Below are positions 42,578-52,709 of a DNA stretch of 64,000 nt, piece by piece (the first letter of the stretch is position 1; every line of letters starts with the position of its first letter). The stretch covers positions 62,001 through 126,000 of the forward strand of contig JAGVKG010000060.1 in the NCBI GenBank assembly GCA_020050685.1. Direction: 5' to 3'. The notes beneath the pieces were generated by a model. It made no database searches, was not told the origin of the DNA, and saw only the letters and a list, made by a program, of their open reading frames with translations. A program made the position numbers and the translations under genes. The DNA comes from Candidatus Obscuribacterales bacterium. GTDB lineage: Bacteria > Cyanobacteriota > Vampirovibrionia > Obscuribacterales > Obscuribacteraceae.

Positions 42578-45563
42578 ACTCAAGATATTCTTGTAATTCT
42601 TGTCCGTTGTCTTGCACAAAACGTACATTTACACGTACGCGCTCCAGCATGCGTTTCACGTCCGATGTGCCAGCCGGCACTGGGTGTGCGGCAAAAAACG
42701 TTCGCAGGTCAGCTTCTTGCTGAGGAAGATTGAACCAAACCATGCGTTCGACAACGTGCGGTAAAGCGAACACTGACCATTTGCTGAGCATGACGTTCCA
42801 GTTTTTCTTGAAGAATTGCCAGGCAAGCAAACGCTCAGGATTACGATCAAATATGTTTACCATAAGTCTTGGTCCATCTTGTTTGTGCACATCATCGGAA
42901 ATTGCCAAGTCGAGAGTCTGCTTGAGCAAATCCGGCGTGCGGAATAATCCCAATGCCATCAAATTGCGTTGTTCGTCTTGAGGATTCTTAGCAGACTGCC
43001 ACAATTGCTTGATGGCGCGATAGTCTTCCGCATCACCATTGTAAGCAACAACATAAGTAATTGCATCGATCAAATCCGAATCGACGGCAGTGTAATCTGC
43101 TTGATACATGCGGAAAAGATCTTTGGCACGGTTAATCGTGTCGTCATCCTGACCAATTGTTCCAAGACATTCAATAACCTGACCACGCAATATCCTCACT
43201 TGCTCTGATTCACCAGAGGCGGCGGTCCAACCTAGGCGCGCCTTAATTGCCGACAAGCGTGATTGCACAAGTTTGGCAAATGCTGGACGGTTAGCTGGCT
43301 CAATAAAATTACTTAGCGCATGAAATTGGCTAAGCAATTGTTGCGTTGGTGCTGGCTCTGTTTCACTTTGATAGAACGAAGTCAGATCCAAATACTGGGC
43401 AACAGGAATTTGGCTTGCCTTCAATTGATACCACTGATCTCGCAACAAATCTCGGCGTTCTTTGCCTTGCAGCTTTGTTTGAATCAAAGGCTCAAGCGCG
43501 CGCAAATCGGCACTTTGATATCCGGTGACAAAATAACCATAACCAGAAGCATTAGCCAAGAATTGTTTGATCTTGCCACCCATTGGGAAAACCAATTCTT
43601 TTGTTTCCAGCAATTTAGTACTGACAGAATTTACATCGCCAGCAAAACCACTTTTACCAGACCAAGTCTTAATCGAAACCGGCACGAACCAGACAACCGG
43701 TTTGCCGGCGGCTTTTGGTTTAAGAGGCGAGTCCAGCAAGAATCTTTCCTGCGTCAGTTTCATTTTCTTGATATTTTTGACTGCATCCTGAAAAAATTCC
43801 ACAGATACTTTCGGATAACCAGGTTCGTTCACCCAATTTTTCATCAGCTGCACAATTGGTCGCCCGGACACAGCTTGAACGGCTTGCCACAAATCAGCAG
43901 TGGTGGCATTGCCGTAAGCATGCAATCTCAAATAGCGATCGACACCAGCCTGGAAAACCCGATCACTAACAAATTGCTCGAGCATGCGCAAAATTGAGGC
44001 GCCCTTTTCGTAAGTGATCTCATCAAACATTTCATTCACGTCGGCAGGCTCGACCACATGGAAATGAATTGGTCGCGTGGAGAGCATCGCGTCAGTCTCC
44101 ATGACTTCGTTATGGTGATCATCTAGATGCACGCCAAACTCATCACAAGCATGCCACTCAGGAAACAAGTTATCAATTGCCTTACAAGACATCCAAGTAG
44201 CAAATGCTTCATTCAACCAAATATCATCCCACCACTTCATGGTGACAAGATCGCCAAACCACAAATGGGCCATCTCATGTGCCACCACGCCGGCAACCCA
44301 TTGTCTATCTCGAGCGGAAGCCTTATCGCTCAGCAAAAGCAATTGCTCCTTAAAGGTAATCGCTCCGACATTTTCCATCGCACCTGCTTCGAAATCCGGA
44401 ATGGCGATTAAATCCAATTTTTGTGCCATATAACGGATGTGGAAATAAGAGTGGTAATAAGTCATCAATCGGCTGGCAACATCTTGTGCAAATTTGCCCA
44501 TCGCACTTTTTCCTCTGACAGACCAAACTCGAATTGGAATGCCGGCGGAAAATATGGCCGGAGTCGCTTCCAATTTGCCTATGACCAAGCAAATTAAATA
44601 CGTGGACATCTTTGGCGTCGGAGCAAAGGTGATTATCTTCTTGTTGCGAGTTGCATCTTCTCTTTCACTCTGCACTTCCGCATTAGAGACAGCTTTCAAG
44701 TCCGAATCAACAATGGCTGTGATTTGATAACTTGCCTTGAAATCCGGCTCATCAAAACAAGGGAACATGCGACGCGCCTCGGTCGGTTCCATTTGCGTTG
44801 CCGCCAAAATTTGCTTGCCACCATTTTCGTCTGTGTAATAGGCTCTGTAAAACCCGCGCAACTTCTCATTGAAACAACCTTTGAATGCCACCGATATCTC
44901 ATAGCGGCCAGCCTCAAGTTTTCGCCCGAAATCAAATGTCGCCTGCTGAAGATGCGGATTGATTGAAACGCGTGCCTGTATGGGCGAGGTCTCCTCGCCC
45001 TCTTCTCCACGAATCGCAACTTTCTCAACTGTCAGATCAAGCGAGTTGACCGTAATTGCACTCACCGGTTTTGAGAGCACAACAGAAATCTTTTCGTGTC
45101 CTTTGAAAGTACCTTCAACAAGATCGGGCTCGACGGTAATTGCATATTTAAAGGGACGAACAAAACGAGGCAAGCGAACACTGCTTGTCACTTTTGCTTG
45201 TGGGACTTTGCCACCACTTCTTGTGAGATTTTGCTTTTCGCTTGCCGATTCCAATCGCAATTCCGACTTAGCTTCTTTGTGCGAATTCTTCTTGTCCCGA
45301 AATCTGGATTTGTCACCAGCAATCGCCTGTGAAGCTCCCTTATCCGATGTATCATCGGACACATTTTTCAGATTGTGAGACTTCCCGCGTGCCTTCGAAT
45401 TCTTCTTTTGTTGTTTGGCCTTAAATGGATGCCCGGACAGCGCCTTATCCTGTTTGCCCTCAATCGTATAGGCAATTGATGTCGTCGCCTGCGCCATGAG
45501 CGTCAAAGCAATTACCAGAGACATACCGATTCTCAAAAGCGATGATGACTTTGTAAACAACAT
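42555..45563 (-). CDS. Exported M1 family zinc aminopeptidase
   Basis: 1,002 residues, about 140 longer than the cytosolic paralogue at 24016-26595. Extra at the N-terminus are a Sec signal peptide (hydrophobic ~10-30, ending near TTSIA) and a Lys/Ser-rich linker to about residue 125. The catalytic core is intact: GAMEN 394-398, HEMAH 429-433 and NEAFA with E452 as third zinc ligand, then YEKGAS. The ERAP1-C-like helical domain follows. The two paralogues share order and length of domains, so one probably arose by duplication and gained export. A GC-rich hairpin repeat is inserted in frame near residues 188-196 (EGEETSPIQ). The 3' end overlaps the convergent gene by 23 bp. Confidence 0.92.
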   Translation of the reverse strand: MLFTKSSSLLRIGMSLVIALTLMAQATTSIAYTIEGKQDKALSGHPFKAKQQKKNSKARGKSHNLKNVSDDTSDKGASQAIAGDKSRFRDKKNSHKEAKSELRLESASEKQNLTRSGGKVPQAKVTSSVRLPRFVRPFKYAITVEPDLVEGTFKGHEKISVVLSKPVSAITVNSLDLTVEKVAIRGEEGEETSPIQARVSINPHLQQATFDFGRKLEAGRYEISVAFKGCFNEKLRGFYRAYYTDENGGKQILAATQMEPTEARRMFPCFDEPDFKASYQITAIVDSDLKAVSNAEVQSEREDATRNKKIITFAPTPKMSTYLICLVIGKLEATPAIFSAGIPIRVWSVRGKSAMGKFAQDVASRLMTYYHSYFHIRYMAQKLDLIAIPDFEAGAMENVGAITFKEQLLLLSDKASARDRQWVAGVVAHEMAHLWFGDLVTMKWWDDIWLNEAFATWMSCKAIDNLFPEWHACDEFGVHLDDHHNEVMETDAMLSTRPIHFHVVEPADVNEMFDEITYEKGASILRMLEQFVSDRVFQAGVDRYLRLHAYGNATTADLWQAVQAVSGRPIVQLMKNWVNEPGYPKVSVEFFQDAVKNIKKMKLTQERFLLDSPLKPKAAGKPVVWFVPVSIKTWSGKSGFAGDVNSVSTKLLETKELVFPMGGKIKQFLANASGYGYFVTGYQSADLRALEPLIQTKLQGKERRDLLRDQWYQLKASQIPVAQYLDLTSFYQSETEPAPTQQLLSQFHALSNFIEPANRPAFAKLVQSRLSAIKARLGWTAASGESEQVRILRGQVIECLGTIGQDDDTINRAKDLFRMYQADYTAVDSDLIDAITYVVAYNGDAEDYRAIKQLWQSAKNPQDEQRNLMALGLFRTPDLLKQTLDLAISDDVHKQDGPRLMVNIFDRNPERLLAWQFFKKNWNVMLSKWSVFALPHVVERMVWFNLPQQEADLRTFFAAHPVPAGTSDVKRMLERVRVNVRFVQDNGQELQEYLESTLRSST
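44977..45003 (-). repeat. REP-like hairpin inserted in the exported aminopeptidase gene
   Basis: GGGCGAGG (44982-44989), loop TCT, CCTCGCCC (44993-45000), with flanks TGTAT and TCT. It matches the copy at 48172-48198 in all but four of 27 positions, and two of those differences are a compensatory A-T to G-C change in the stem. It is translated as EGEETSPIQ in a loop of the N-terminal domain. Confidence 0.75.
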
Positions 45564-45610
45564 ATACAGAATAACCTCATATCAAAATGCAGCGAAGCTG
45601 GAAGCGGCCC

Positions 45611-46156
45611 TCAGATATTCGAGCCGGATAATTGTCTTTTATATATCTCCGAATACTCTACATAGTTTTGCCAGCCGCGGTCGATTTTTTCACGATCGTC
45701 CGGTTTGACTTGTCTAATTACTTTGCCGGGCGTTCCCAGGACAAGCGAATTGGGCGGAATAATTGTGCCCGGTGCCACCGTGCATCCAGCGCCAACAACA
45801 GAACCGGCACCGACAACTGCCCCATCCAAAACAATTGCGCCCATGGCAATTAAGCAATCATCTTCAATGGTACAGCCATGGATAATCGCACCATGACCAC
45901 ATGTCACGCGGTCCCCGACAACAACCGGCAGGTCATCCGTCACATGCAAAATACAACCATCTTGAATATTGCTCTTGACACCAATTGTTATGGAATTTAT
46001 ATCTCCCCGCAAGACACAGGCAAACCAAACTGAGGCTTGTTCCTTCAGCTCGACCGCACCTATCAAAGAGGCAGTCGGCGCAACGAATGCAGTTGGGTGA
46101 ATCTTGGGCTTGACGTCATTAAATGTAATCAGCATAGGCACTAACTTTAGCAGCAT
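45611..46156 (-). CDS. Gamma-class carbonic anhydrase family protein
   Basis: 181 residues (174 if the second Met, 46135, is the start; neither has a strong ribosome site). Left-handed beta-helix hexapeptide repeats (GAVELKEQASVWF, IGVKSNIQDGCIL, GAVVGAGSVVGAGCTVAPG) form the core. Family-conserved residues are present: Arg and Asp in LRGD, Gln in NIQDG, the His in CILHV, and the two His of CGHGAIIHGC, which supply the trimeric metal site. A C-terminal helix follows. Likely reaction is CO2/bicarbonate interconversion, but many members have untested activity. It lies 47 bp upstream of the exported aminopeptidase on the same strand. Confidence 0.92.
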   Translation of the reverse strand: MLLKLVPMLITFNDVKPKIHPTAFVAPTASLIGAVELKEQASVWFACVLRGDINSITIGVKSNIQDGCILHVTDDLPVVVGDRVTCGHGAIIHGCTIEDDCLIAMGAIVLDGAVVGAGSVVGAGCTVAPGTIIPPNSLVLGTPGKVIRQVKPDDREKIDRGWQNYVEYSEIYKRQLSGSNI

Positions 46157-46289
46157 CAGCGCCAGGGGACGAAGGAAAAAATCTTAAGTGGCAGCCCCAA
46201 TGCCATATCTAAAAATATGCCGGCCCCAAAAATATGCCCTACGTGTCGCGTTATAATACATCTGAGTCTTTGATCCCTGTGAAGAGGAA

Positions 46290-47348
46290 ATGCGCGTGAA
46301 TACGAAAACTTCTTTATCCCTAGCCGTTGTGGCAGCATTGCTGTCAGTTAATTCCATTGCATTTGCTGCGGATAACAATGCTGATAGCCACGTTCAAAAG
46401 GGGAATAGCTATCTCGATCGCATGGATTTGAAGAAAGCCGTTGCCGAATTTAGAGAAGCAATTCGCATTGACGCAGACAATGTCAAAGCTCACCAAAGAC
46501 TGGGCGCCGCATTGGCAGCCATGGAAGATTACCAAACGGCAATCTTGGAAGAGCAAACAGCAATTCGCCTCGATCCCAAGTACTTTTTGCCCCACGTGAT
46601 TTTGGGCAAAGTTTATGGCAACCAGAACAAAATTAGCGATTCAATTGCTGAATTCAAGAAAGCCCTTGAGTTGAAGCCGACCAGCTATCGCACACACCTC
46701 GATTTGGGTCTCGTGCTTTCATCAAACGGTCAAACTGATGAGGCAATCCAAATTTATCGCAAAGCCGCAGAGCTCAGCGATAAGGATCCAGTGCCACACG
46801 TGAACCTGGGCGTGCTCTTTGCCCAGAAGGGACAATATCAAGAAGCAATTAAGGAAGAAGAAGCAGCAATTGCTTTGAACAAGAATTTCCCCAAAGCCCA
46901 CTTAAACCTTGGCAACGCCCTGGCTGAATCTGGTGATTTTGATGGTGCGATTCGTGCTTTTGAAGCTGAGTTGAAAATCACGCCAAACGATCCCAATGCT
47001 TTCAGCGGACTTGGTTGGATGCAACAACAAAAGGGAAATATTGCTGGCGCAATTGAAAGCCAAAAAAAGGCAATCAAAATCTTCCCGCAATTTGCACCAG
47101 CCCACCGCCGCTTAGCATCAGCCTTGGCTCAAAAAGGTGAAATTGCTGCTGCTACCAAAGAATACGCAGAAGCAATTAAGTTGAACAATCACGATACCAA
47201 TACCATTGTCGAATACGCTGACTTTTTGGCCGAACACGGACAAGTTAAGGAAGCAGAAGCACAATACAAAAATGCTTTGGGCATAGACAAGAATCTCAAA
47301 CCAGCACTTGCCGGTTTGGAGAAACTATCCAAGCCGCAAGTTAAGTAA
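46290..47348 (+). CDS. Exported TPR-repeat protein
   Basis: 352 residues with a Sec signal peptide ending at AFA-ADNN, then about nine consecutive TPR units of 34 residues (e.g. AVAEFREAIRIDADNVKAHQ, AIAEFKKALELKP-like). The GAGGA at 46284-46288 is too close to the ATG at 46290 but ideally spaced for the GTG at 46296, which may be the true start. The repeats fill almost the whole mature protein, so it is a pure scaffold in the periplasm or outside. A strong hairpin terminator follows. Confidence 0.88.
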   Translation: MRVNTKTSLSLAVVAALLSVNSIAFAADNNADSHVQKGNSYLDRMDLKKAVAEFREAIRIDADNVKAHQRLGAALAAMEDYQTAILEEQTAIRLDPKYFLPHVILGKVYGNQNKISDSIAEFKKALELKPTSYRTHLDLGLVLSSNGQTDEAIQIYRKAAELSDKDPVPHVNLGVLFAQKGQYQEAIKEEEAAIALNKNFPKAHLNLGNALAESGDFDGAIRAFEAELKITPNDPNAFSGLGWMQQQKGNIAGAIESQKKAIKIFPQFAPAHRRLASALAQKGEIAAATKEYAEAIKLNNHDTNTIVEYADFLAEHGQVKEAEAQYKNALGIDKNLKPALAGLEKLSKPQVK

Positions 47349-47368
47349 TTAGCTTCTAAAAAACAACG

Positions 47369-47404
47369 AAGGGATCTTTGACATAGCTCAAAGATCCCTT
47401 TTCT
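47369..47404. terminator. Bidirectional intrinsic terminator
   Basis: AAGGGATCTTTGA (47369-47381) and TCAAAGATCCCTT (47388-47400) form a perfect 13-bp stem with a 6-nt loop between two convergent genes. T-rich sequence (TTTTCT) follows on the plus strand, and a U-rich tract follows on the minus strand from the AAAAAACAACG before it. Confidence 0.9.
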
Positions 47405-48794
47405 ATGTACCCGAAAGAGCCAGTCCACGCGCCGCCAGAATTTTTTGCAGCTCAAGCAGGCAAGTGTACGTAGGCATGACCCAGAGCGTCTCTGCACTGT
47501 CAGTCAAGCCAATCGCGCGATCGAGAGCTTGGGACAAATCAGAAACTACGACGATTTTTTGCGGGTCTATTCCTGCGTACTTCATACGCACGGCCATATC
47601 TTCCGCGCGCTGACCGGCAACAACGACTTTGCCTTTATGCTCAGACAAGCGCTCAAATTCCGCATCCCAGAGCCAAGATATATCGCGACCATCAGCATAA
47701 TTGTCGTTGATGGCAATCAGGATTTGTTTTTCTGAATCTGTGGCGCAAGCACTAATAACTTGGGTGGCACCAGAAGGATTTTTGATCAATTGAATCAGAA
47801 CACTTTTGCCGGAAATTTCCACGCGCTCCGACCGACCAAAAAGTGTTTCGTAATTTTCTAAACCATTTTTGATCGTCTGGGCATCGATGCCAATTTTGTA
47901 CGCCATGGCAGCAGCCGCCAGGGCATTGTAAACATTGAAAAGACCGGGCAAGGCAATTTTGATTGATTGCACTTCCTGGTCTAGTCTCAATGTAAATGTG
48001 GATCCACTGGCGCTAACAGCAATGTCGGATGCAACGACTGTCGGTTGTGGACGAGCATTGCCGCAGTTTGCACATCGCCAATGTCCTAATTGACCGTAGA
48101 ATAATAAACTGTACGCATATTCATTTTCGCAATTTGCGCAATAAGATAATTCGCGTATCGCACCATGATATTGTAGGGGCGGGGTTTCCCCGCCCTCTGA
48201 TGCGGATGCGGAAAGCGATTCAATGCCATAATAAATCCGCCGGCTGCCGGCTGCCAGCTTAGCCACATTGGGATCATCGGCATTGAGAATGGCAGGCGAA
48301 TGGTTGATGGCAATACCTTTTTCGATCAAGCGCGCCGTCGTATCTAGCTCGCCAAATCGATCGAGCTGATCACGGAAAAGATTGGTGACAACAATGGCAG
48401 CAATATCAATTTCCGCTGCCACCACAGGTAGTGTCGCCTCATCTATCTCGAACAAGCAATAATCGGCATCCAATTTGCCTTGCCAGCTAGCTTGATCAAT
48501 GAGAGTAGCCGTAATTCCTGTGACTAGATTGGCACCTTGCCGATTGTGAACAATCTTCAATTGAGCCTTATTCAATATAGAAGAAATAAAACCGCAAGTT
48601 GTGCTTTTGCCATTCGTGCCGGAAACGGCCAAGACTCCCTTGCGGCACTGGACAGCTAATTGTTTCAGTACATTTGGTGCGACACGTCGGGCAATCCGTC
48701 CGGGTAAATTCGAGCCAAGACCAAGTCTCAACGAACGAATCGCATTGGTAGAAAGCTTAGCAAGACTAACTGCCAGGTTCTCTTTGAGATTCAT
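47403..48794 (-). CDS. murT: Lipid II isoglutaminyl synthase subunit MurT
   Basis: 463 residues from the ATG at 48792-48794 (GGGGACC upstream). Mur-ligase family enzyme that activates the D-Glu carboxylate of lipid II for amidation to iso-Gln, working with the glutaminase GatD. The ATP loop VSGTNGKSTTCGF lies near the N-terminus. Also seen are FEIDEATLP and TNLFRDQLDRFGELD, a four-Cys zinc ribbon (CANC…CANCG) typical of MurT, and the C-terminal DUF1727 domain with NDNYADGRDISWLWD. gatD, usually adjacent, is not in this window. A REP-like hairpin is inserted in frame just before the zinc ribbon (EGGETPPLQ). Confidence 0.93.
   Translation of the reverse strand: MNLKENLAVSLAKLSTNAIRSLRLGLGSNLPGRIARRVAPNVLKQLAVQCRKGVLAVSGTNGKSTTCGFISSILNKAQLKIVHNRQGANLVTGITATLIDQASWQGKLDADYCLFEIDEATLPVVAAEIDIAAIVVTNLFRDQLDRFGELDTTARLIEKGIAINHSPAILNADDPNVAKLAAGSRRIYYGIESLSASASEGGETPPLQYHGAIRELSYCANCENEYAYSLLFYGQLGHWRCANCGNARPQPTVVASDIAVSASGSTFTLRLDQEVQSIKIALPGLFNVYNALAAAAMAYKIGIDAQTIKNGLENYETLFGRSERVEISGKSVLIQLIKNPSGATQVISACATDSEKQILIAINDNYADGRDISWLWDAEFERLSEHKGKVVVAGQRAEDMAVRMKYAGIDPQKIVVVSDLSQALDRAIGLTDSAETLWVMPTYTCLLELQKILAARGLALSGT
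48172..48198 (-). repeat. REP-like hairpin inserted in murT
   Basis: GGGCGGGG (48177-48184), loop TTT, CCCCGCCC (48188-48195), with flanks TGTAG and TCT. Second copy of the element at 44977-45003; the stem difference is compensatory. Translated as EGGETPPLQ in the linker before the MurT zinc ribbon. Confidence 0.75.
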
Positions 48795-52584: not shown

Positions 52585-52653
52585 ATTGTCATCCTGAGGC
52601 ACTAACAATAAATTGTCATCCTGAGGAGCTCTAACTAGATTGTCATCCTGAGG
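52585..52653. repeat. Three 27-bp-spaced copies of ATTGTCATCCTGAGG
   Basis: Exact 15-mers start at 52585, 52612 and 52639. The bases between are variable, and the last copy runs on into AGCGCCAGCGACGAAGGACC. The same core occurs in both orientations at 59781-59905. It is an intergenic dispersed repeat downstream of alaS. Confidence 0.85.
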
Positions 52654-52709
52654 AGCGCCAGCGACGAAGGACCTCTCATAATCACCAAAGATCAACTTGG
52701 ACAATAAAC

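Follow-up and report, generated by a model that had tools for sequence, protein, structure and literature searches.

Two 27-bp hairpins that lie in protein-coding genes of an Obscuribacterales bacterium belong, with a probability of about 0.92, to a family of about 51 GTAG-tagged REP copies that was mobilised by a RAYT transposase, spread mainly through intergenic DNA, entered a few genes in frame and is now probably orphaned. REPs are small palindromic repeats whose spread to new sites is attributed to RAYT transposases (HUH/Y1 tyrosine enzymes), which would recognise the hairpin with its GTAG tag in single-stranded DNA. Both hairpins lie in what we call the window, the whole stretch of 64,000 nucleotides that was analysed. 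The source genome (Obscuribacterales, Ca. Melainabacteria) is 4.2 Mb in 70 contigs and 98.7% complete, and the best named matches to its MurT come mostly from Candidatus Obscuribacterales / Melainabacteria.

An earlier, sequence-only reading of the window had reported a 27-bp hairpin in an exported aminopeptidase gene and in murT. We recovered both copies in those places, far above chance expectation: the pattern TGTAKGGGCGRGGTYTCCYCGCCCTCT matches twice in the window (Table 1) and not once in 100 dinucleotide-preserving shuffles. The copy in the aminopeptidase gene (TGTATGGGCGAGGTCTCCTCGCCCTCT) and the copy in murT (TGTAGGGGCGGGGTTTCCCCGCCCTCT) differ at four positions, as had been reported, and two of these form one matched stem pair, A-T in the former versus G-C in the latter. 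DNA folding gives both copies an 8-bp stem and a 3-nt loop, with z-scores of -4.2 and -3.5. The tag of the aminopeptidase copy is degenerate, with GTAT in place of GTAG. The frame is kept in both genes, where the element is read as EGxETxPxQ (EEGEETSPIQ in the aminopeptidase, SEGGETPPLQ in MurT).

Table 1. Hairpins, host genes and composite sites (plain positions are those of the window; prefixed positions are those of the contig or locus named)
Feature	Position	Strand	Remarks
M1 family aminopeptidase, 1002 aa	42555..45563	-	Pfam PF01433, PF17900, PF11838; Peptidase_M1 E=1.3e-73
REP copy 1, A-T stem subfamily	44977..45003	+	In M1 aminopeptidase gene, strand opposite to gene
REP copy 1, perfect 8-bp stem and 3-nt loop, GGGCGAGG-TCT-CCTCGCCC	44982..45000	+	DNA fold
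MurT, 477 aa	47403..48836	-	Pfam PF08353; MurT_C E=8.1e-35
REP copy 2, G-C stem subfamily	48172..48198	+	In murT, strand opposite to gene; TGTAG tag intact
GTAG tag of REP copy 2, unpaired tetranucleotide diagnostic of GTAG REPs	48173..48176	+	Definition from PMC3733652
REP copy 2, perfect 8-bp stem and 3-nt loop, GGGCGGGG-TTT-CCCCGCCC	48177..48195	+	DNA fold
RsmA gene with insert	L036:1469-2497	-	Residues ~126-150
GTAG hairpins between second-repeat arms, G000	C2:68509-68555, C10:58323-58369, C16:70428-70474, C39:72797-72842, C41:32915-32961, C46:34110-34156, C50:241-287

A pattern search of the whole genome returned 39 exact and 11 one-mismatch copies (50 in all), and the reversed control returned none. 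Allowing up to two substitutions at the sites retrieved gave 52 copies; one of these, at L032:1950, lacks GTAG and was set aside as a chance match, to leave 51, spread over more than 20 contigs. These figures come from pattern search and retrieval of the sites and therefore under-count strongly decayed copies. With a looser GTAG pattern the number of matches rose to 67 (control, 0), and a second stem type appeared, GGGCGAGGC-NN-GCCTCGCCC (also written GTAGGGGCGAGGC-NN-GCCTCGCCC), which carries the A-T form at the variable pair. Genome-wide, the G, T and A of the tag are each present in 51 of 52 copies and the final G in 50 of 52. The tag is one-sided, with CTAC on the opposite side in a single copy (L041), and the flanks are poorly conserved across copies except for a partial 3' extension resembling TCATCGCGACGAA. 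Twelve of the 51 copies are arranged as six inverted head-to-head dimers, offset by 43 bp in four cases and by 69 bp in two.

The exact stem was not found in the 59 relatives searched. The exact family is confined to the source genome among these relatives, and no orthologous empty site can be read at the DNA level, because the stem is absent from all of them. Two relatives have larger families that follow the same design on a different stem, GTAGGGGCGGATTGCATCCGCCC or a variant of it, with 18 matches in genome G016 and 72 in genome G044. On contigs C1 and C2 of G044, which is of the same class, the GTAGGGGCGGATTGCATCCGCCC family often forms inverted pairs 42-43 bp apart, and REP-flanked RAYT genes are present. 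G044 is a RAYT-bearing population that can be compared with the RAYT-less genome of the window.

At the variable stem pair, 44 of the 51 copies have G-C, 5 have A-T and 2 have C-G. Stem cells are paired in 99% of cases, a figure that falls to 57-71% when the partner is slid by one to three columns, and the seven two-sided changes, all at one pair, were equalled in 0 of 500 shuffles; these covariation counts are of copies within a few subfamilies, not of independent events, and picking by pattern favours intact stems. The matched pair had earlier been taken to mean that the hairpin itself is under selection. We cannot agree with that conclusion: the R-Y pair marks a subfamily and is common to copies elsewhere in the genome, and because the matched change separates subfamilies of a dispersed mobile repeat, it is no evidence of selection at the two sites. 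What it shows is that the stem of the family stays palindromic, not that the aminopeptidase and murT loci are selected. Quasi-palindrome correction by template switching, rather than selection for a hairpin recognised by a transposase, would likewise account for matched changes without selection and for near-complete pairing in a genome where no transposase is now detectable, and the same picking of intact stems works in its favour. However, the matched change falls mainly at a single pair and recurs in several copies, as would be expected of descent from a small number of source copies; the second stem type has A-T at that pair; and template switching would not make about 50 dispersed copies. 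We consider this origin of the stems highly improbable.

To place the copies relative to genes, we trained a gene caller on the codon usage of the window, 85% of which is coding. The sequence-only reading had suggested counting copies inside and outside genes across the genome, and the count reveals a dispersed family that is mainly intergenic: 42 of 51 copies (about 80%) lie between genes and 9 inside them, the two in the window being part of this minority. Among the intergenic copies, 33 are set between co-directional genes, 6 between convergent and 2 between divergent genes, and 1 is at a contig edge. Four further copies (two dimers) fall in DUF1574-type ORFs that the caller had shortened; even with these included, for 13 genic copies, the depletion from coding DNA has a p value of about 4e-21. 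Copies near predicted N-termini (L032, L033, L040 and L043) were left out of the intragenic count because the gene caller or the domain start puts translation downstream of them. In seven copies (L017, L018, L023, L027, two in L038, and L047), the REP supplies the stop codon, TAG, of the open frame before it.

The many copies just downstream of genes, with their almost perfectly paired stems, would also suit RNA-level regulatory or terminator structures that are held in place by selection and are not mobile. Such structures are hard to reconcile with an asymmetric GTAG tag and with copies that point either way, lie within genes or pair up as inverted dimers, or with the lack of the exact family in 59 relatives. 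A Rho-independent terminator was rejected, since the aligned copies have no consistent T run after the hairpin on either side, and an Rfam search of the tested locus gave only matches far below gathering scores. A selected RNA structure is therefore a very unlikely basis for the family, while some intergenic copies may have a secondary RNA role.

We next consider the host proteins. In the aminopeptidase, the REP-encoded segment occupies residues ~188-196 (GEEGEETSPIQ) of the N-terminal domain, and in MurT it occupies residues ~214-222 in a variable linker ahead of a Cys-rich segment. The idea that the element was inserted is borne out for MurT, which has about 8 residues more than its closest homologues within a linker of widely varying length, but not for the aminopeptidase, where the linker exceeds that of the nearest relatives by only 2-3 aa and sequence comparison gives no clear case of a net gain in length. 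The MurT linker is also longer than in S. aureus-type MurT (6gs2), and an AlphaFold model of MurT has pLDDT<50 at residues 211-226 and is otherwise confident (mean 83). QueA, RsmA, homoserine kinase and a protein with weak similarity to DNA polymerase IV are likewise encoded by genes with an internal copy, and in PurQ-like and glycosyltransferase proteins the copies come close to the C-terminus. Only two frames are used by the internal copies, EGGETPPLQ and VGAGxPRP. By alignment to solved structures, the REP-holding segments of QueA and RsmA are roughly 30-40 residues longer than in homologues.

If the EGxETxPxQ loops were ancestral protein sequence, the hairpin would be a by-product of codon choice, and the aminopeptidase linker is indeed about as long in homologues. 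Yet the same DNA element sits in about 50 places, mostly non-coding, and other genes read it in the VGAGxPRP frame. Homologues sharing the loops, which the earlier reading had named as the sign of ancestral sequence, did not appear: none of EGxETPP, EGxETSP, GGETPPL or VGAGxPRP occurs when the 146 other loci scanned, homologue-bearing loci among them, are translated in all six frames. An ancestral origin is contradicted for MurT and is hardly credible overall.

We also asked which transposase might have moved the family. Searches with PF01797 and with two RAYT-type profiles, A1 and A2, detected no RAYT or other Y1 transposase in the source genome, although PF01797 was found in 19 of the 60 genomes searched. 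Profile A1, built from four RAYT-like proteins of relatives, matched 6-7 of 8 relatives, six of them at strong or moderate E-values, in the same run that returned nothing from the source genome. It gave five matches at E <= 1e-53, or four when the weaker relatives in G020 and G030, which are of a different RAYT type, are left out; three of the five are profile members and two are new (G021 and G044 C2:171137). Two RAYTs of relatives have NF047646 as their best match, at 79.5 and 79.8 bits with a cut-off of 80. GTAG-tagged GC hairpins stand beside the RAYT gene in all five loci examined in relatives (L214-L218). In G021, which MurT identity places among the close relatives, the RAYT gene (L217) is flanked on both sides by CGTAG-GGGCGCAT-TGC-ATGCGCCC hairpins in inverted orientation (8-bp stem, 3-nt loop). 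The REP/RAYT comparison made from the sequence was the right one; the REP-associated tyrosine transposase that it led one to look for was detected in sister genera and not in the source genome. Because of this, the driver is inferred from relatives, which together with the literature point to mobilisation by a RAYT.

A second family of repeats has the form TTGTCATCCTGAG(G)-stem-CGACGAAGGACCTCTCAT, in which the stem varies but is self-complementary. One copy lies in the window at 52642-52671 (+), and upstream of it are two half copies, near 52587 and near 52612. The pattern GTCATCCN{4,34}CGAAGGA has 85 matches in the source genome and none in the reversed control. Many differing central stems are still palindromic, and the covariation seems much richer than in the GTAG hairpin. 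At several sites (Table 1), a GTAG hairpin lies exactly between the arms of this repeat (GTCATCC[T]-GTAG-hairpin-...CGACGAAGGA), an arrangement that looks nested or modular, and the insert in rsmA, the gene of a core rRNA methyltransferase, reads DCHPDAQPNDCHPVGAGSPRPHSDEE, apparently a second-family arm plus a GTAG REP. The loop of the second repeat (GTCATCCTGAG-variable stem-CGACGAAGGACCTC) might be a preferred landing site for GTAG REPs, producing nested mobile hairpins with one such composite in rsmA; we raise this tentatively and think it somewhat doubtful, one modular element family being the alternative. A literature search on the second repeat (CHPERSEG / GTCATCCTGAG) gave only unrelated papers among the matches listed.

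GTAG REPs are defined by a one-sided GTAG tag (Di Nocera, De Gregorio, Rocco 2013, BMC Genomics 14:522, PMC3733652), and the sections of that paper drawn on here describe complementary stem subfamilies, head-to-head dimers, donation of TAG stops, a preference for unidirectional and convergent spacers, and copies inside genes, which are catalogued in several species and may be neutral in flexible linkers or loops. The present family is like these elements, cyanobacterial GTAG-15/16 included, in its one-sided unpaired GTAG, 8-bp stem and 3-nt loop; in the complementary stem residues that set its subfamilies apart; in head-to-head dimers with spacers of 20-100 bp; and in its mostly unidirectional or convergent intergenic settings, TAG stops and minority of copies in genes. 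It also falls within the described limits of a 20-40 bp palindrome with a one-sided tag, a 6-13 bp stem and a short loop; the match to the 24 families of that paper is one of description. Every defining feature of GTAG REPs that we tested was found, and a RAYT in the same genome was not, which separates this family from RAYT-linked GTAG REPs. It differs as well in its host, a non-photosynthetic member of the Obscuribacterales, an order absent from the species named in those sections.

Palindromes invading coding sequence had been called rarely described, but according to the same sections (PMC3733652) intragenic GTAG REPs were catalogued in 2013 and Rickettsia palindromic elements (RPEs) earlier. 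RPEs, as presented there, are likewise palindromes in frame in protein genes but are CGTC-tagged or longer, whereas the tag here is GTAG and the copies are mostly intergenic. With REPIN/RAYT systems (Bertels and Rainey 2011, PMC3116915; 2021, PMC8049555) the family shares inverted REP doublets with a short spacer and, in sister genera, RAYT genes flanked by REPs; unlike those systems, it consists mostly of singlets in a genome without a detectable RAYT. REPIN singlets are usually decaying REPIN remnants (PMC8049555). No paper in the literature searched names Melainabacteria together with REPs. What is new is a lineage-specific GTAG REP family in the Obscuribacterales, with intragenic copies of an already described type.

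We propose that a REP family copied by a RAYT would have spread mainly into the intergenic DNA of this lineage, while a minority would have landed in frame inside murT, the M1 aminopeptidase gene, queA, rsmA, the homoserine kinase gene, a Pol IV-like gene and others. The translated REP may be tolerated as a flexible loop or tail, and such loops are presumably neutral. The cognate RAYT would have been lost later; because it is undetectable in this genome, the REP population is probably an orphan remnant. These data bring the Obscuribacterales into the range of GTAG REPs and show RAYT genes in sister genera; they change no established idea. A genome without a detectable RAYT that carries REPs in core genes (murT, queA, rsmA and homoserine kinase) is useful for the study of how long orphan REPs last and how proteins accommodate them.
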